From NCBI GenBank assembly GCA_026387935.1, contig JAPLKU010000001.1, positions 62,001-126,000 of the forward strand: 64,000 bases of DNA, read 5' to 3'. Positions 6,242-14,800 of the stretch are shown here, piece by piece. The notes beneath the pieces are model-generated. The model did no database searches. It saw only the letters and a list, made by a program, of their open reading frames with translations, and had not been told where the DNA came from. Both the position numbers and the translations under genes were made by a program. How positions within the stretch are numbered: position 1 is the stretch's first letter; each line of letters opens with the position of its first letter. The stretch is from Gemmatimonadota bacterium (GTDB lineage Bacteria > Gemmatimonadota > Gemmatimonadetes > Gemmatimonadales > Gemmatimonadaceae).

Positions 6242-7312
6242 CTACGGCCGCCAGTCTGCGATGAAGAGATTGACGTCATCGGATTTGGCCGCATTCCGCT
6301 GCGAACCCCAGATGATCTTCTTCCCGTCGGGGCTGAACATCGGAAATCCGTCGAAGCCTTCGTCATTCGTGATCTGCTTCAGCCCAGTACCGTCGAGCGA
6401 TACGATAAACAGATCGAAATTGCCGCCGCGCGGATTCTGGTAGTTGGAGGCGAAGATGATCGCCTTTCCGTCTGGTGTCCACGACGGACCGAAGTTCGCT
6501 CCACCGAGATGCGTCACTTGGCGCTGACCACTTCCGTCGGCATTCATGACCCAGAGCTCAACCTTGCTTGGACGCACCAGTCGGAGTGCGAGCAGGTCGC
6601 GATAGTCCTTGAGATCCTTTTCTTCCGTAGGGTGGTTGGCCCGGTAGATGATCTGCGTTCCATCGGGTGACCACCAGGGTCCGCCGTCGTAGCCAGGCGT
6701 ATTCGTCAGGCGGCGAATGTCGGTGCCATCGACGTTCATCGTGTAGATGTCGAGGTCGCCGTCCTTCAACGACGTGAACACGATGCGCTTGCCATCGGGC
6801 GAGAGCACACCCTCGGCGGTGTACACGCCGAAGTTTGTGATGCGCTTGATGCCGCTTCCATCGATGTTCGCCGTATAGATGTCGAAGGGATCGAGACCCC
6901 AGGTGTACCCCTTTGCCGGATCGGGTCGTGTCGGACAGGCCGCACCCGCGGCGTGCGTGGATCCGAAGAAGAGGCTCTTCGCGCCCGGAAGAAACCAGCC
7001 GCAGGTTGTCTTGCCGGCATTCGGAGAGACACGACGCATGTCGGTGCCGTCGGGCTTCATCACAAACTGCAGATCGCACGGATGGTCGCCGCGCGTGGAC
7101 TGGAACGTGATGAGCTTGCCGTCGGCGCTGAAGTACGCTTCGGCCTGCGTCCCCGTCGCTGTGAGCTGGCGAATATTGGCAAGATGCGACTCGCCGGGTC
7201 TGGCGTCGCGCGGGATATTGACTTGTGCGGAGCAGTCCGCGGAGATCAGCGGCGCAAATGCGACCGCCCACCCCGCGGCGATGGCCGCGAGGTTGAGTTC
7301 CTTTCCGAGCAT
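6242..7312 (-). CDS. Exported TolB-like (PD40/WD40) beta-propeller protein
   Basis: This 356-residue protein has an N-terminal hydrophobic segment (residues 6-26) ending near ADCSAQ, consistent with export. It then has repeated PD40 units: FSADGKLITFQS, LSPDGKRIVFTS, WSPDGTQIIYRA, WTPDGKAIIFAS, FSPDGKKIIWGS, each preceded by an N-x-DG-S/T-x-x-R/K-x-x-T strand. That is the six-bladed TolB-type propeller. Such stand-alone propellers bind partner proteins or peptides, and there is no catalytic domain. Its ATG shares one base with the S41 protease stop (TAATG), so the two are translationally coupled. Together they may act in periplasmic proteolysis, with the propeller as substrate-docking partner. 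Confidence 0.85.
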   Translation of the reverse strand: MLGKELNLAAIAAGWAVAFAPLISADCSAQVNIPRDARPGESHLANIRQLTATGTQAEAYFSADGKLITFQSTRGDHPCDLQFVMKPDGTDMRRVSPNAGKTTCGWFLPGAKSLFFGSTHAAGAACPTRPDPAKGYTWGLDPFDIYTANIDGSGIKRITNFGVYTAEGVLSPDGKRIVFTSLKDGDLDIYTMNVDGTDIRRLTNTPGYDGGPWWSPDGTQIIYRANHPTEEKDLKDYRDLLALRLVRPSKVELWVMNADGSGQRQVTHLGGANFGPSWTPDGKAIIFASNYQNPRGGNFDLFIVSLDGTGLKQITNDEGFDGFPMFSPDGKKIIWGSQRNAAKSDDVNLFIADWRP

Positions 7313-8913
7313 TACTTCTCCGGCTTGTTTGAAGGCGTGGACGTCGAGGCGGCGATCGCGAGCAGGTCCTTGGTCGTGGATCCGCGGCGTAGAAGCTCGA
7401 GGGCCTTCTTGAGCTGCGAGTCATCCTTGACGAAGCGCCGTTTGGCCGTCGAATCGCCGAAGGCCAGGACCGAGATGCGACCGTCGAGCATGCGATTGAC
7501 GTAGGACTGCGCTGCGTCGTAATCCTTTCGCTCGAGTGTCACCCCACGCTTGCCGAGGCGCTGAAAGAACTCATCGCGCATTTCCTGGGTGACGACGAAG
7601 TCGGGCTTGACCGTCTTGCTCAATTCAAACGAGTAGTCGTAGAGGGCGAGGTACGCCTCCTGCGACTTGGTGGCGAGCATGCGATCAAAACGCTGCTCCA
7701 CTGACGTCAGTGTGTCGGCGGGGACGATGATATCGGGCGTGATCGCGCCGCCGCCGTACACCACACGACCGCCGTCCGATTTGAACTTCGGACGAGCGGC
7801 GCGAGATGAATCGGACTCGAGTGAGTCGGGGTGGACTTCGATGAGCTGGCCGTCGTCGGTGAGTTTGCGTTCGCGCTGAATGGACCGGCCCGCTGGCGTG
7901 TACCACTTGGCCGTCGTGAGCTTGATGGCGTAGCCTCCGTCCAGGCGATACATGGACTGCACGAGTCCCTTACCGAACGACGTCGTGCCGAGGATGAGCG
8001 CGCGGTCGTGATCCTGCAGTGCTCCGGCCACGATCTCCGAGGCTGAAGCGGAACGTCCATCGGTGAGGACGACGAGCGGAATCGTTGGGGCCGCTGGCGT
8101 CTGCGTGGTGACGTGTGTGATCGTCGGCTCGCCGCGCTGGCGAACGCTCACGATCTCCTGGCCCTTGCCGAGGAAGACGTTCGCCATCGTGTCGGCCTGC
8201 TCGAGAAATCCACCGGGATTGCCACGAAGGTCGAGCACGACGCCCTTGGCGCCCTCGGCCGTGAGGCGCACGAGTGCCGCGCGCGTTTCGGACGAGGCGG
8301 TTTCACTGAAGCCCGTTACCGGGATGTACGCGATCTTGTTGTCGAGCATGATCGCATACGGCACTGCCGGGATGCGCACCACTTCGCGCGTGAAGGTGAC
8401 CGCAAACTGGTCGGCGCCCGGACGGAGGAACTTTGCCGTCACCTGCGTGCCCGGCTTTCCTTTCAGCTTTGAGGAGACCTGCTCGATCTTCCATCCGCGG
8501 ACCGCGAACGTGTCCACGCCGATGATCTTGTCGCCGACGCGAATGCCGGCGCGTTCCGCAGGAGTGTGCGGGAAAACTTTTTCGATCGTGATTAGGCCTT
8601 CCTGGCTCACGATCGTCATGCCGACGCCGCCATAGAAGCCACCGGTGCTCTGGTTGAACATCTCCAGATCCTTCGGCGTGTACAGCTCGGCGTATGGATC
8701 CTTCAGTTCGGTGACCAGACCGCGTGCAGCTTTTTCGTACAACGCGCCGACCGTGAGTGAGTCGACAAAGCGGTCGTTGACGATGGCGACGACCTGCTGG
8801 AAAAGGCGAACGCCACTTTGCGCCTGCCGCTCCTGAAGCACAAAGCCGCCAACCGCAATTGGGGCAATGAGGACAGCGGCGAGCAGGATCTTCTTGGCGC
8901 GTGGAGAGGTCAC
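7312..8913 (-). CDS. C-terminal processing protease (S41, CtpA/Prc-like)
   Basis: The chosen product has 533 residues. It starts at GTG 8913, with AGGA eight bases upstream; the longer upstream frame has no leader features. A membrane or signal helix is at residues 8-27. The PDZ domain lies around 95-170 (GGVGMTIVSQEGLITIEKVFPHT) and the S41 protease domain at about 195-385. The catalytic Ser is in the SASASEIVAGAL motif near 290 and the catalytic Lys in TTSFGKGLVQ near 315. A C-terminal helical tail of about 120 residues follows. These proteases cleave C-terminal tails of envelope proteins. The gene leads a minus-strand operon that continues through the propeller, YhaM-like, MFS and fumarase genes. 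Confidence 0.92.
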   Translation of the reverse strand: MTSPRAKKILLAAVLIAPIAVGGFVLQERQAQSGVRLFQQVVAIVNDRFVDSLTVGALYEKAARGLVTELKDPYAELYTPKDLEMFNQSTGGFYGGVGMTIVSQEGLITIEKVFPHTPAERAGIRVGDKIIGVDTFAVRGWKIEQVSSKLKGKPGTQVTAKFLRPGADQFAVTFTREVVRIPAVPYAIMLDNKIAYIPVTGFSETASSETRAALVRLTAEGAKGVVLDLRGNPGGFLEQADTMANVFLGKGQEIVSVRQRGEPTITHVTTQTPAAPTIPLVVLTDGRSASASEIVAGALQDHDRALILGTTSFGKGLVQSMYRLDGGYAIKLTTAKWYTPAGRSIQRERKLTDDGQLIEVHPDSLESDSSRAARPKFKSDGGRVVYGGGAITPDIIVPADTLTSVEQRFDRMLATKSQEAYLALYDYSFELSKTVKPDFVVTQEMRDEFFQRLGKRGVTLERKDYDAAQSYVNRMLDGRISVLAFGDSTAKRRFVKDDSQLKKALELLRRGSTTKDLLAIAASTSTPSNKPEK

Positions 8914-9056
8914 GGATCTATTCCTGAGGAAGACTATTAACGCGACTCGTATAGGAGAATACGCCTTGAATACGCCCTGCGCAAAGCATCTGTTCCCAAT
9001 TCTCAAAAGAAAGATCAATCCGTGAACGGAGGCGTAACCTTATACCGCACAACGGG

Positions 9057-9914
9057 TTATGGCTGGTGCTGTGCCGGTCCAAGTGTGTAGTCGACATGCC
9101 AGACTCGCGCTTCTTGCACAAACACGGCGCTGCGAAGGATTCCGGCGGCGACCAGCATCTCGTGGGCAGGCTGGAGCACCCGCTGCAGGTGGGATGGAAA
9201 TCGCTGCACCAACGGGAGTTGCTCGGCGAGTTGGTCGAGCGAAATTCGCCACAGCGGGAATGCCTGCGGCCGCATGACCTCGAGCAATCGATAGACGCGG
9301 CGGGCGACCGGCGACGAGAGTGCGAAGTAGCGCGTGGATGACAACAGTACCGTGTTGCCGGCCGCGATGTTGGCCCGAATCGGAGCGGCAATAGTGATGC
9401 GCGCGTCGCCGGGCTCGTTGCTCGTCATTGCGGGAAAGAGCGCCAGCTGTTCGCGTTCGGTGTTGCGGCGGCGGTCGATCTGCACTGACGACAGCATGGA
9501 GAAACTGCCGTTCATCGTGGTGCCAGACGACGCATCGACGTAGGCGTTGTCGGACTCGAGTGTGGTACGGAGCAAGCGAGTCAGGGCCGATCGCAGTTGT
9601 TCGTAGGTACGACCATCGACGCGGCGGCCCATCGACCGCAGGAGCGCGTGGAGGGTAAAGGACAACGCGCCGTCGGCGGGACTTCCCGCTTCGTGATATC
9701 GGCGAAGCAGCTCGACGTAGACATCCTGGTCGAAGGTGCCAGGCAGTCGTTCGCCGGGAGAGGGAAGCACTCTCCATCGGCCGCCGGTCCTCGGCTCGTA
9801 CGAGATGGCGGCTTCATCGGCAGAGTCACTCAACCGGAATACCGGAAGCAACTCAAACGACCGATCGATCGGAATGGCTCGCGACGCTGCCCGCCGGCGC
9901 GCGGGAACCGTCAT
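9057..9914 (-). CDS. Replication initiator protein A (RPA, plasmid-type RepA family)
   Basis: This 285-residue protein matches the RPA family of plasmid replication initiators. It has the early FDQDVYVELLRRYHEAG segment, then FTLHALLRSMGRRVDGRTYEQLRSAL, the winged-helix-like core in which RPA proteins recognise origin repeats. SSTRYFALSSPVARRVYRLLE and a second winged helix (LAEQLPLVQRFPSHLQRVL) follow. Plasmid initiators of this type start replication at iteron origins. Here the gene sits between housekeeping genes with no partition, mobilisation or integrase gene visible, so it looks chromosomal and may be domesticated. It overlaps the SDR gene by four bases (ATGA at 9914-9911). No iteron array is visible nearby. 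Confidence 0.8.
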   Translation of the reverse strand: MTVPARRRAASRAIPIDRSFELLPVFRLSDSADEAAISYEPRTGGRWRVLPSPGERLPGTFDQDVYVELLRRYHEAGSPADGALSFTLHALLRSMGRRVDGRTYEQLRSALTRLLRTTLESDNAYVDASSGTTMNGSFSMLSSVQIDRRRNTEREQLALFPAMTSNEPGDARITIAAPIRANIAAGNTVLLSSTRYFALSSPVARRVYRLLEVMRPQAFPLWRISLDQLAEQLPLVQRFPSHLQRVLQPAHEMLVAAGILRSAVFVQEARVWHVDYTLGPAQHQP

Positions 9915-10642
9915 CCGGTGAGCTCGATGACCTGGCCCGTGACCTGCGCTGCCGCGGGTGAACAGAGGAACCGCATCGCATCGGCGACCGCCTCAGGCTC
10001 AACGAACTTCGTACCGTCGGGCATCGCGGCCACGTTGTGGTGCGTCCTGATTGACCCCGGCGCGATGGCATTCGCGCGTACACCACAGGCCTGCTCTTCC
10101 TGGGCAACCGCTCGCATGAGCGTAAGCACGCCAGACTTTGCGATGGCGTACGCCGCGGTGTTCTCCACCCGCGCACCGGGCATCGCAGCGGCGCTGGCCA
10201 CGAAGACAATGGATCCGCGCGATTCCCTGAGCGCAGGGAGAAAGGCCCGTGTGGTTGCGTAGGCCGTTCCGAGATTGAGGGAAAGCTGCTGCGTCCACGC
10301 CACCGGATCGCTTTCAGCGACCGGGCCACTCATGGCGAATCCGCCGGCCAGATTAATCAATACGTCAACGCGACCCGCTGAGGCGCGGACCAGTGTTGCG
10401 AGGTGCGCCGTCGCGTCCGGGTTGGCGAGATCGCACGCGAAGGGATGTACGTCGAGTCCGTCCGTTCGCATTTGCGCGGCGCGTTCTTCTGCGGCTTCCT
10501 GCGATCGCGCGACGATGGAGACATGGTCGCCACGAGCCGCGAATGCGCGCGCAACGAAATCGCCGAGCTGCCCCGATTTGGCGACACCGGTGACCACGAC
10601 CGAACGGCGAGCACCGGGGGTCGGGGTCACGAAACCGGTCAC
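9911..10642 (-). CDS. SDR-family NAD(P)-dependent oxidoreductase
   Basis: The 243-residue protein is a classical short-chain dehydrogenase. The nucleotide-binding motif is TGVAKSGQLG near the N-terminus, an NLAGG turn is near 98-101, and the probable catalytic set is S150, Y165 and K169 (YAIAK). The PGSIRT segment after the last core strand is usual for the family. The coenzyme and alcohol/ketone substrate are not predictable. The start is GTG at 10642, overlapping the MerR-like stop as GTGA; the stop overlaps the RPA start as ATGA. Such tight packing between a regulator and a replication initiator is odd for a metabolic SDR. Confidence 0.9.
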   Translation of the reverse strand: MTGFVTPTPGARRSVVVTGVAKSGQLGDFVARAFAARGDHVSIVARSQEAAEERAAQMRTDGLDVHPFACDLANPDATAHLATLVRASAGRVDVLINLAGGFAMSGPVAESDPVAWTQQLSLNLGTAYATTRAFLPALRESRGSIVFVASAAAMPGARVENTAAYAIAKSGVLTLMRAVAQEEQACGVRANAIAPGSIRTHHNVAAMPDGTKFVEPEAVADAMRFLCSPAAAQVTGQVIELTG

Positions 10643-11187
10643 CTGTGCTCTTCGCGACCGAGCGCCGCGCGGACCGCCTCGCGCATGGCGACAAGCGCCG
10701 CATCGTCAGATACCGCCGAGTCGCTGCGCACGTTCAACTCAATTCCGTCCGCGACGGCAATGCGCCGCCACGACACCGGCTCGTCGCTGCCGGAAATCAC
10801 GGAATGATCGGCACCGATTCCAAGTGCAGGGGCGAGCGATTGCGCGACGCGGCGTTCGAGGAGATCACCGGAGAGTTCGCCCATTTCGCGCCGAATGGCT
10901 TCGAGGGTCTGCCCTTCCCGCTGGCGGATCTTGATGGCCAACAACTGCAACAGGTGCCGGTAGTGGTAGGTCGCGGCGGTGCCGCGCCCCTCCGGGTGAT
11001 CGATCAGTCCTGTGGCGACGTAGAACCGCACTGCCCGTGCACTCGGCACGGCTCGCGCGGAGGCGTTCGTCGGTCGAATGCCAGCGGCGTCAACGAGCGC
11101 GGTGACGTGTGCGGCGAGCCCACGCGCGTTCCACGGAGCGTGGCGCGCGTGAACTCGAAGCAGCGAAACCGGCGGTTCGGGCGCCAT
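10639..11187 (-). CDS. MerR-like helix-turn-helix regulator
   Basis: The 182-residue protein has a MerR-type winged helix at about 48-105. SARAVRFYVATGLIDHPEGRG is the wing and second-helix region, followed by YHYRHLLQLLAIKIRQREGQ, like the R-Y/F-Y-x-x-x-G-L-I and R-Y-x-x-x-x-L-x-x-I-x-x-L pattern of the family. The recognition segment is preceded by a longer N-terminus than usual. The C-terminal 70 residues (DEPVSWRRIAVADGIEL) could form a small sensing or dimerisation domain. No metal-binding Cys set is visible. It lies 29 bases after the histone-like gene and overlaps the SDR gene by GTGA, so it probably regulates this cassette. Confidence 0.75.
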   Translation of the reverse strand: MAPEPPVSLLRVHARHAPWNARGLAAHVTALVDAAGIRPTNASARAVPSARAVRFYVATGLIDHPEGRGTAATYHYRHLLQLLAIKIRQREGQTLEAIRREMGELSGDLLERRVAQSLAPALGIGADHSVISGSDEPVSWRRIAVADGIELNVRSDSAVSDDAALVAMREAVRAALGREEHR

Positions 11188-11216
11188 GTGTAGTCGCGGA
11201 CTTCAGCGTCCGCGGC

Positions 11217-11816
11217 CTACTTCTTTGGGCGCGCCTTCGCCTTCTTTGCCGGCGATGCCTTTTTCTTGGCTACTGGTTTTGCCTTCTTCGCGACCGGTTT
11301 GGCCGGCTTCTTCTTGGTGACCGGCTTTGGAGCCGCCTTTTTCGCCGGTTTGGCCGCTGGCTTGGCCGCTGGCTTGGCCGCTGGTTTTGGCGCCGGTTTT
11401 GGCGCCGGTTTCGGCGCCGATTTCGGCGGTTTCGGCGGTTTGGCCGTCGGTGTTACAGCGGCCGTTGCGACGACCTTCGCACCGGCTGTCGGTGCGACTG
11501 GTGCTGGACCGCCGTCACCGGAGAGGGAGACCGCGCCAGGCTTCCGACCACGCTTGCGCGGACCCGAGTCCTCGAAAGGTTCGGCGTCGTCGTCGTCGCC
11601 GTCGGCGGCCTCGGCGGCCTCTGGAGCCTCCTCATCGTCGTCAGACGAATCCTCGGCGCTGTCCCAGATCGAATCGCTGTGGTCCTTGTTCGTGGCCCAG
11701 CCGCCACCCTCGTTGTCGTCTTCGTTGTACGAGGCGCTGCTGCCACCACTGTAGCTGCTGTCTTCGCCGTCGTCGTCGTAGCTGCGTTCGTTGGTCAAGG
11801 CGTCAGAAGTCGCCAT
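11217..11816 (-). CDS. Histone H1-like nucleoid protein with acidic N-terminus and AT-hook-like motif
   Basis: This 199-residue protein has opposite charge at its two ends. Residues 1-83 are very acidic (runs of Asp, Glu and Ser). A basic PRKRGRKPG at 86-94 resembles an AT-hook. Residues 125-199 are made of Lys/Ala/Pro repeats (KPAPKPAPKPAAKP, then AKKAKPVAKKKASPAKKAK) like the tail of eukaryotic histone H1 and bacterial H1-like proteins. It is expected to bind DNA and compact or bridge it; the acidic end could tune binding. Translation signals are strong: TAAGGAGGA ends six bases before ATG. It stands first in a minus-strand series with the MerR-like, SDR and RPA genes. Confidence 0.75.
   Translation of the reverse strand: MATSDALTNERSYDDDGEDSSYSGGSSASYNEDDNEGGGWATNKDHSDSIWDSAEDSSDDDEEAPEAAEAADGDDDDAEPFEDSGPRKRGRKPGAVSLSGDGGPAPVAPTAGAKVVATAAVTPTAKPPKPPKSAPKPAPKPAPKPAAKPAAKPAAKPAKKAAPKPVTKKKPAKPVAKKAKPVAKKKASPAKKAKARPKK
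11350..11421 (-). repeat. Tandem 12-bp coding repeats in the histone-like tail
   Basis: Three copies of a 12-bp unit (plus strand ttggccgctggc; the third differs at its last base) run from 11350 to 11385. Three copies of a related unit (tttggcgccggt) follow, the last one degenerate. They encode the KPAA and KPAP repeats. Repeat number is likely to vary between strains by slippage. Confidence 0.8.
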
Positions 11817-11885
11817 GAAATCCTCCTTATCAGTGCGAAATTCACCTGCTTACCCACCGCTGAATACACTACTCGAGCACACGAG

Positions 11886-14800
11886 TCAAGCGGGGGTGCG
11901 AATATCCGAGTCCGCGAGCGCCGGAACGGGGTCTCGGCGCTGTGGGGTACGTACTGTGCGGCGCGCCTTAAGCCACAGGGTTGCGTCGTCGAGCATAGTG
12001 TACACCACTGGCACCACGAACAGTGTCAGGAGGGTGGATGTGATCAATCCGCCAATGACGGCGCGGGCCATTGGCGCACGCTGTTCTGCCCCTTCGCCGA
12101 GGGCAAGGGCGAGGGGGAGCATGCCGAAAATCATGGACGTAGTAGTCATGATGATCGGACGGAGGCGAATGCGTCCAGATTGGAGGATGGCATCGAGTCG
12201 CGAATCTCCTTCGTCGCGCCGTTGGTTCACGAAGTCAATGAGCAGGATGCCGTTCTTCGTCACGAGACCCATCAGCATGATGATGCCGATCATCGACATG
12301 ACGTTGACCGTGCCCTTCGTGATCAGCAGCGCCAGTGCGACGCCGAGGAAGCTGAGGGGCAGGGACAGCATGATGGAGAGCGGCTGGATGAACGAGCCGA
12401 ACAGCGATGCGAGAATCAAGTAGATGAACACGACGGCGAGCCCGAGCGCCTGAGCGACGTAGCCCTTGGTTTCATTCAGGTTCTTTACGTCGCCGCCGAA
12501 CTTGGTGCGATAGCCAGCCGGGAGAGCGAGCGAGTCGATCGCGGCCTGCGCGCGCGCGGCCACGTCACCCACAGGGGCCCCTGGAAGCACCTGGGCCGAG
12601 ATCTGGATCTGTCGTTCCAGCTGGAGGCGCTGAATGGTCTGCGGGCCGACGCCAGGTACGAACTCGGCGACCTGTGTCAGCGGAATACTGGCGTTTCGAC
12701 CGGTGCGGACATCGATCCCGCTGCCGGAGATCGGGATGTTCGCGACATTCGCTGCCGTTTCACGAAGCGAGTCAGGATAGATGACGACGACATCGTGCGA
12801 ATAGCCTTGCGGATCCTGCCAGGTGGTGGCGCGGCCGCCGGTAAAGAGCGGCTGCAGCGTGCTGGCGATCGTGCCGATGCCCAGCCCAGCCGCCCACGCC
12901 TGCTGGCGGTCCACGCGCACGTCGAGCTGCGGCACATCGCCTTCATCGGACGATGTTGGTTCCGCCATGCCGACCGTCTTGCGGGCGGCCTCAAGGACCT
13001 GCGCGGCGATGAGTTTGAGTCGTGCCGGTTCAGGACCCTGCACGTTGATCTGGATTGGCGCACCGCGGCCGCCGAACATCGACATCGTCTGGCCGATGCT
13101 GGCTTTCACGCCGGGGAAGTCATTTAGATGCTGCCGCAACTCGGCCTGAATCTCGAACTGTGCGCGCGTCCGTTGTGATTTGGGTTTGAGGCGCATGTAG
13201 ACGCTCCCGCTCCCGCTGCCGCGGCCCATACCGCCGCCGCCGCCCACGGAGAGCTGCGTGAATTCCACTTCTGGAATTTTCTGCACGAACTTGTCGATCG
13301 CCTGGCCCCTGACGAGGCCGTAGGCGAGACTGGCGCCTGGCGCAGTGCGGAAATTCACACTGAACTCACCGGCGTCGTAGTCCGGCATCCAGGTGAATCC
13401 GATGAGACGGAAGAGCAAGAAGGCCGTGACGATGGAGGCGGCGGCGCCGCCTACAATCAGCGGACGGTGTGCCAGCGACCAACGGAGCCAGCTCGGATAT
13501 TTGTCTGCGACTCGCTCAAACCACTCGTCGAAGTGCAGTGCGACACGGCGAATCGGTCCGGCGTGTCGACGGGCCTCTTCGCCATGCTCACTGGCATCAG
13601 GATCGTACCAAATACTCGAGAGCATCGGGTCGAGCGTGAATGAGACGAAAAGCGATACGAGTACCGCAAACGCGACCGTTACGCCGAACTGGAAGAACAT
13701 CTTGCCGATGGTTCCGCCCATGAACGCCACCGGGATGAACACGGCGACCACAGCGAGCGAGGTGGATAGCACGGCGAGTCCGATTTCGTCGGTGCCGTCC
13801 TTCGCCGCACGGTGGTGGTCTTTTCCCATCCCGAGATGGCGCACGATGTTTTCGCGCACCACGATGGCATCGTCAATCAATAGTCCGATCGCGAGCGACA
13901 ACGCCATCAGCGTCATGGTGTTCAGCGTGAACTTGAACAGCCACATGATGAAGAACGCCGAGATGATACTGACCGGCAGCGTGAGGCCCGTGATAACCGT
14001 CGATCGCCAGGAGTTCAGGAAAAGGTAGATAATGGCGATCGTCAGGACTGCGCCGAGAATGATCGTCAGCTCGACGTCGGCCAGCGCTTCGCGAATGTGC
14101 TTCGCGTTGTCGCGAACGACCGTGAGGGTGAGGTCCGGCGGCAGCGTGCGTTCGACTTCGGCCACGACCTGTTTCACGCGCTCGACGACTTCCACGGTGT
14201 TCGATCCCGAGATTTTGAGCACCTCGAGTGAGACCGTTGGCACGTTGTTCAGGAGCGACGCCGACCGCTTTTCCGACACGGTGTCGACGACACGCCCGAT
14301 GTCGCGGACGCGGACCGGCGATCCGGCGCGTACCTGCACGACCACGTCGCGGAAGGCGAGTGGGTCAACGACGCGGCCCGTGATACGCACGAGGCGTTCA
14401 GCGTCGCCCTTGATAATGCGGCCCGCGGGCACTTCCTGATTCTCGCGGCCAAGCGCCGTCATTACTTGATCAGGCGTGACGCCATAGGCGCGCATGTTGA
14501 CTGGATCGAGCTCAACGCGAATCTGGCGCGTGGCGGCACCGTTGATGTTCAAGCCACCGACACCTGGAACGCTTTCAATGCGCAGGCGGATGACCTGGTC
14601 GGCGATGTCGCTGACTTCGCGCAGGGTCCGCGTCTTGCTCTGCAGCGCAATGGTCATGACCGGCGAGTCATTTGGATCGAACCGCATGATCGTCGGGTCG
14701 AGAATGTCGCGCGGGAGCTGGCGCCGAATACGCGCGACCTTCACGGAGATTTCCGGTTGCATGCGCACCGGATCCACCCCGAGATTGAAGTTCAGTCGGA

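Follow-up and report, generated by a model that had tools for sequence, protein, structure and literature searches.

To our knowledge, initiation on the main chromosome of bacteria is generally ascribed to DnaA alone, whereas replication initiators of the plasmid type have been described for plasmids and for secondary chromosomes. RctB, the initiator of Vibrio chromosome 2, is described as a plasmid-type initiator that serves cellular DNA (PMC6284228, PMC11711613). Here, we analyzed a window of 64,000 nucleotides (bases 62001-126000 of the 136,227-bp contig G000:C6) from a genome of the family Gemmatimonadaceae, phylum Gemmatimonadota, which encodes a replication initiator protein A (RPA) together with an SDR oxidoreductase, a MerR-type regulator and a histone H1-like protein (Table 1). 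Comparison with plasmid relatives and with related genomes indicates that this RPA is almost certainly a domesticated plasmid-type initiator that now belongs to the chromosome.

The contig of the window bears dnaA (G000:C6:6051) with adjoining dnaN, and RPA is located at C6:71060. The RPA gene is therefore chromosomal, and a plasmid or chromid contig was rejected on the same ground; location on a plasmid contig was one of two findings that the initial annotation had named as overturning its reading. RPA and dnaA share one contig in all nine genomes compared, among them single-contig genomes of 4.64 and 3.26 Mb, at a distance of 64 to 680 kb. The statement that this chromosomal RPA has no partition or mobilization genes around it was also correct, and an iteron context is likewise missing.

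Whole-protein searches of 61 genomes recovered RPA from 34 of 37 Gemmatimonadaceae genomes, with G011 as a weak member (E 6.7e-5, 28% identity), and from none of the 24 genomes of two sister families. The Pfam model, searched against 395 genomes of the phylum, detected RPA in 129 of 140 Gemmatimonadaceae genomes (a family total read from the order of the genome listing) as compared to 0 of 255 others, and the PF10134 score was above the cut-off in 128 of the 140. RPA is normally single-copy in these genomes and strongly conserved (57-78% identity). Full or partial matches (E below 1e-79 or better) have an open reading frame in 33 of 34 family genomes; the exceptions are G034, whose frame is interrupted by a single internal TAA, and G011 with its weak match. 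Eighty named RPA contigs that were found independently are labelled Gemmatimonadota, Gemmatimonadaceae or Gemmatimonas, apart from a few titled only 'bacterium' and one titled Candidatus Kuenenia. No RPA match was found in phage records. A phage origin was rejected, as the 19 pattern matches in IMG/VR included no relative and the only PHROG hit was weak and of unknown function. A chromosomal RPA in Gemmatimonadota is not described in the titles and abstract openings of the literature searched.

In the phylogenetic tree of RPA (55 family and 11 plasmid sequences; 26 genera), every genus represented by at least two rows forms one clade, although support for genus g1 is only 73/89. The stem that separates the family RPAs from the plasmid RPAs amounts to 3.29 changes per column and was flagged by the program as a long branch. 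Genus-level clades in combination with a long stem present the pattern of a single capture followed by vertical inheritance. The sister families possess the MerR gene in 19 of 24 genomes and RPA in none, which suggests that MerR is the older member of the gene order and that RPA arrived beside it. According to its open reading frames, one sister-family locus (L081) has, in this order, genes for an MqnD-like menaquinone-biosynthesis protein, MerR, a LemA-like protein, an M48-type peptidase, an acyltransferase-like protein and an HD/OB-fold protein. The first and last of these genes have tblastn matches among window genes of assigned family; the names LemA, M48 and acyltransferase are a reading of the sequences made with no model search. 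Eleven of 12 genomes checked that have no clear RPA also have no MerR; the twelfth, G074, does possess an RPA gene, which the end of a contig truncates. This co-absence was not used as evidence, because the two genes are linked in metagenome-assembled genomes and the RPA of G074 is merely cut.

One member of the family, G262, encodes long plasmid-type RPAs besides its chromosomal RPA. They are located on contig C5 (L116), beside ParA and a relaxase, and on contig C6 (L115), near ParA and a transposase, and both contigs are apparently true plasmids within the same family. Since G262 carries both forms, the chromosomal RPA represents a separate lineage and no recent plasmid insertion.

Plasmid and chromosomal RPAs also differ in architecture and genomic context. 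Plasmid RPAs of Rubrobacter, Deinococcus, Thermus, Candidatus Manganitrophus and Isosphaeraceae share 25-31% identity with the window RPA over 72-95% of the query. The 11 that were compared have 363-486 amino acids and extend beyond the second winged helix (WH2) with a C-terminal tail, whereas the chromosomal RPAs stop 36-50 residues past the [FY]PSH in WH2 (80 loci). Iteron arrays flank the plasmid RPA gene in each of the four cases examined, with 8 copies in Rubrobacter, 10 in Deinococcus, 7 in Thermus and 4 in Manganitrophus, and ParA/ParB are encoded near several plasmid RPA genes. No iteron array is present at window positions 7000-12500, where the sole repeats are coding repeats of the H1 gene. 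The window RPA thus shows none of the three features examined as marks of an iteron-plasmid initiator: adjacent iterons, an extrachromosomal replicon and the C-terminal extension of its plasmid relatives.

A sequence search for solved relatives of RPA returned none. The AlphaFold2 (AF2) model of RPA was built from 44 sequences (predicted local distance difference test [pLDDT] 86.8, predicted template modelling score [pTM] 0.85) and contains two tandem winged helices in the arrangement known from RepE. It matches RepE54 on DNA (8ac8, Z 17.9, root-mean-square deviation 3.3, 206 residues; 1rep, Z 17.3), RctB (5tbf, Z 15.9) and Pi (2nra, Z 15.5), with structural matches spanning RPA residues 8-283. 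Residues 236-256, which include the presumed DNA-recognition helix of WH2, are the most constant among the stretches compared, with a mean entropy of 0.32 bits versus 0.98 bits for the whole protein. On the basis of these structural matches and of the constancy of WH2, the initiator fold and the likely DNA-reading helix are intact in the modelled chromosomal RPA. As judged from fold and conservation, the two winged helices most likely enable RPA to bind double-stranded DNA in a specific manner.

The chromosomal RPAs are further distinguished by a family-specific loop of the pattern RRR-x2-[DE]-[RK]-[DE]-Q-[LFM]-x-[LF]-F-x6-EPG. Of 148 sequences examined, 144 fit the search expression, and in all but one of these (143) the loop is 22 residues long. 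R148-150, Q156, F160 and E167-G169 are invariant in 44 of 44 sequences, L157 and L159 are nearly invariant, and residue 158 is free. The core Q[LMF]x[LF]F is carried by all 113 distinct family cores, and among the 18,932 residues of the 37 open reading frames of the window the motif expression matches the RPA loop only. The loop is missing from the five plasmid RPAs that were aligned with family RPA; a motif search of all 11 plasmid RPAs gave no match in that loop. Its only hits were QPSLF, which lies C-terminally in one protein, and two poor matches in other places. QLALF of the window RPA sits in a low-confidence part of the structure model and is a close variant of the bacterial clamp-binding motif, whose consensus is given as QL(S/D)LF (PMC9690074). 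For the plasmid initiator TrfA, removal of LF from the clamp motif is reported to abolish clamp binding, and the TrfA-clamp complex is reported to be required for origin-dependent replication (PMC4980987). The window contig encodes a conventional beta clamp, which is matched by 55 PDB clamps (best E 9.8e-68). Based on its motif, we predict that the QLxLF loop probably attaches RPA to the beta sliding clamp of DNA polymerase.

Table 1 Features of the RPA locus. Coordinates are positions in the window; residue numbers refer to RPA.
Feature	Coordinates	Strand	Basis
RPA, two-winged-helix initiator-type protein, 285 amino acids, chromosomal	9057..9914	-	PF10134 E 9.4e-21, 74.9 bits (above the gathering cut-off of 27)
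WH2 helix, residues 240-256 (PSHLQRVL.PAHEML), presumed DNA-recognition	9147..9197	-	Helix in AF2 model; role inferred from RepE fold
Family-specific 22-residue loop, residues 148-169 (RRR...EPG)	9408..9473	-	pLDDT 50-60 in AF2 model
QLALF, residues 156-160, predicted beta-clamp-binding motif	9435..9449	-	Match to consensus QL(S/D)LF
SDR oxidoreductase, variable cluster member	9911..10642	-	adh_short E 1.4e-36
MerR-type regulator, 182 amino acids, without recognized effector domain	10639..11187	-	MerR_1 E 3.8e-6, 27.4 bits (above the cut-off of 21.6)
H1-like protein	11217..11816	-	Acidic N-terminus, Ala-Lys-Pro tail
Conserved promoter-like element TTGAC-N-TATTCAGCG, upstream of H1	11858..11889	-	One window match versus 0.02 expected
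S41/PDZ C-terminal processing protease, downstream of RPA	7312..9018	-	Peptidase_S41 E 1.2e-47
TolB-like PD40 beta-propeller protein, frequent neighbour	6242..7312	-	PD40 E 8.1e-42

We conclude that a RepE- or RctB-like plasmid initiator entered the chromosome of the family ancestor beside the older MerR gene, that its iteron origin and C-terminal tail were then lost, and that RPA was kept by vertical descent from there on. Capture, loss of origin and tail, and vertical retention are shown by the sequence comparisons, except for the direction of change, which we infer. The two winged helices of such a protein would still read specific sites in chromosomal double-stranded DNA, and the QLxLF loop would dock it on the sliding clamp. 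At its sites on the chromosome, RPA could help to load components of the replisome or to keep them there; alternatively, it could couple active replication to the control of initiation, like the clamp-dependent Hda in Escherichia coli. On balance, we favour the explanation that the domesticated initiator binds chromosomal DNA, docks on the clamp and acts in or on chromosome replication. More tentatively, a single capture at the family root may have given rise to a chromosome-wide factor, with winged helices on chromosomal sites and a loop that holds the clamp, so that control or replisome loading on the single main chromosome would have a second layer that does not depend on DnaA.

Several observations weigh against a role of RPA in replication. 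No chromosomal RPA binding site was found. In the genome search for RPA binding repeats that the initial annotation had proposed, the Rubrobacter iteron, with up to 3 mismatches allowed, showed no excess, with 3 matches in the own genome and 3 in the reversed control. A looser iteron expression did not match contig C6 or any of eight loci. Eleven of the 140 Gemmatimonadaceae genomes are without an RPA match; in one of the 11, G074, this is due to a contig end, whereas two others, G011 and G016, are 98% complete. In many genomes RPA is part of a putative single transcription unit with non-replication genes, which would suit a transcription factor as well. The cumulative GC skew has its minimum at positions of about 28-36 kb in G000:C6, 45-60 kb in G157 and 40-70 kb in G071, some 30-60 kb away from dnaA in the direction of RPA; it is near RPA in G000 and G157, but in G071 RPA lies about 150 kb further on. 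Given this uneven pattern, RPA is not claimed to mark an origin. Noise in the sampling precluded a reading of the skew in G033.

An alternative hypothesis is that RPA now acts purely as a transcription regulator, i.e., as a dimeric Rep-type repressor of its own operon or of others, with the QLxLF loop making another contact. RepE dimers repress repE, and a regulator would be in line with the place of RPA in an operon with MerR and SDR, the translational coupling of these genes and the lack of iterons nearby. The H1 gene is also preceded by a conserved promoter-like element: TTGAC-N14..20-TATTCAG is present in 25 of the 28 H1 upstream regions that were obtainable from 34 H1 sequences. In the own genome, TTGAC-N15..19-GTATTC occurs twice, one copy being at the window H1, and a stricter form occurs once, at H1. 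However, the element is confined to genomes with H1, whereas RPA is family-wide. Among 59 family genomes, the longer form of the element was present in 7, once each, and in one of these (G367) it stands in a different context by sequence; H1 is therefore a feature of some genera and outside the family-wide core. The RPA model is nearer to iteron-bound RepE (1rep) than to the RepE dimer (2z9o, Z 9.7), a comparison that a monomer prediction cannot settle, and a clamp-type motif in all distinct family cores is unexpected for a pure repressor. We thus consider an exclusively regulatory RPA unlikely. The initial annotation had suggested a domesticated initiator used as a regulator. Domestication now stands on firmer ground than could be known from the window alone. 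RPA may be used in regulation, yet the conserved clamp-type motif is at least as suggestive of the replisome and makes replication the better guess.

A second, RPA-dependent origin that was left on the chromosome by an integrated plasmid is improbable. RPA has kept the full initiator fold and the recognition helix and lies within 64-300 kb of dnaA in eight of nine genomes, which speaks for such an origin. Yet the searched segment of the window is free of iteron arrays outside the H1 coding repeats, whereas all four plasmid relatives have one, and the skew minimum of G071 is remote from RPA. DnaA boxes and AT-rich stretches did not reveal a single clear origin.

Other replication-related and segregation-related features were recorded in these genomes. 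A parS-like site is located at C6:26703 beside ParA/ParB-like genes. The 14-bp word GTAAACATGCGTTT occurs twice (C6:24010 and C6:26792; L207), 2.8 kb apart, within AT-rich spacers around bactofilin-like and parAB genes. G071 encodes a 592-amino-acid protein with two tandem DnaA-type AAA+ domains (L289:1733-3511, plus strand; Bac_DnaA E 1e-101), whose gene is flanked by those of an Arf/MglA-like small GTPase and of a DUF4388-TPR protein, and DnaA-type pairs are also found in G157, G105, G063, G080 and G106.

The initial annotation had read the H1, MerR, SDR and RPA genes as one DNA-linked system. Its description of the locus agrees with the open reading frames, all four of which lie on the minus strand at the positions it gave, with a gap of 29 nucleotides between the H1-like and MerR genes and overlaps of 4 nucleotides between MerR and SDR (GTGA) and between SDR and RPA (ATGA). 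Conservation of the neighbourhood was assessed in two overlapping sets, 38 loci of the genomes with G handles and 80 named loci, and only loci with enough flank were counted. The S41 protease gene, which had no part in the initial account, follows RPA without exception (38/38 and 66/66 testable loci), and the TolB-like gene is near RPA in 32/36 and 38/55 loci. MerR is found at most 4 kb upstream of RPA in 29/37 and 30/61 loci and, if up to 8.4 kb are allowed, upstream on the RPA strand in 45 of 50. SDR is encoded within 4 kb of RPA in 22/37 and 24/61 loci; for H1-type genes, with a limit of 5 kb, the counts are 23/37 and 25/58. Part of the gene order is thus conserved across relatives, and the other finding that the initial annotation had named as overturning its reading, a lack of such conservation, was not observed either. 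SDR and H1 are loosely associated. Gene order is kept beyond chance, though not strictly. According to these counts, the quartet of H1, MerR, SDR and RPA is common but loose and no obligate unit, while RPA and S41 are a fixed pair.

One dedicated DNA-compaction or stress system made up of the four genes is accordingly very unlikely. The frequent position of MerR on the same strand upstream and the frequency of H1 genes upstream of RPA are in line with such a system, but SDR and H1 are absent near RPA in many loci, MerR is more than 26 kb from RPA in G071, G080 and G100, and MerR appears older than RPA. PADLOC models gave no match, and a defence system was rejected for this reason. H1, MerR and SDR are putative co-transcribed neighbours of RPA in many genomes, with MerR as a possible regulator of the operon. 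The H1-like protein carries the motifs KDxSDS(L/I)WDS and PRxRGR(K/R)P, by which the 34 sequences were recovered, and its composition fits a basic Ala-Lys-Pro tail; no Pfam, PHROG or other family model matches it. The AF2 model of MerR has a pLDDT of 79.9. The wider surroundings of the four genes comprise TolC/MFP/RND efflux genes upstream, and the S41/PDZ protease and PD40 propeller genes downstream.

That RPA is a functionless plasmid remnant, as the loss of origin, tail and partition genes might suggest, is exceedingly unlikely and in practice refuted by the strong conservation of the protein and its recognition helix, the vertical inheritance across 26 genera and the open reading frame in nearly all family genomes.

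RPA has its whole fold (residues 9-283 aligned) in common with two iteron-binding two-winged-helix initiators, the RepE protein of plasmid F and the Pi protein of R6K, but differs from both by its chromosomal location, the lack of iterons beside its gene, a sequence identity of about 13% and the extra QLxLF loop. The plasmid initiators of PF10134 belong to the same Pfam family; they possess the tail, iterons in all four cases examined and, in several cases, ParA/ParB nearby, whereas chromosomal RPA consists of the core only, plus the QLxLF loop. A further likeness is to TrfA of plasmid RK2, a winged-helix initiator that is described as binding the beta clamp by a motif needed for replication (PMC4980987). 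However, TrfA is only a weak Foldseek match (9a0w, E 0.034), is plasmid-borne and has its motif at a different position. Functionally, RPA could be analogous to Hda, which is described as exerting clamp-linked control of chromosome initiation in the regulatory inactivation of DnaA (RIDA) (PMC9690074), although Hda is a DnaA-like AAA+ protein and RPA is not. RctB shares the fold and, like RPA, is a plasmid-type initiator in the service of cellular DNA, yet it drives a second chromosome with its own origin, whereas RPA resides on the one dnaA-bearing replicon, where no local origin was found. If the proposed replication role is true, a plasmid-type initiator that became fixed on the main chromosome of a bacterial family, without an origin and with a clamp-type motif, would show that conversion of such a protein into a chromosomal replication factor is possible.

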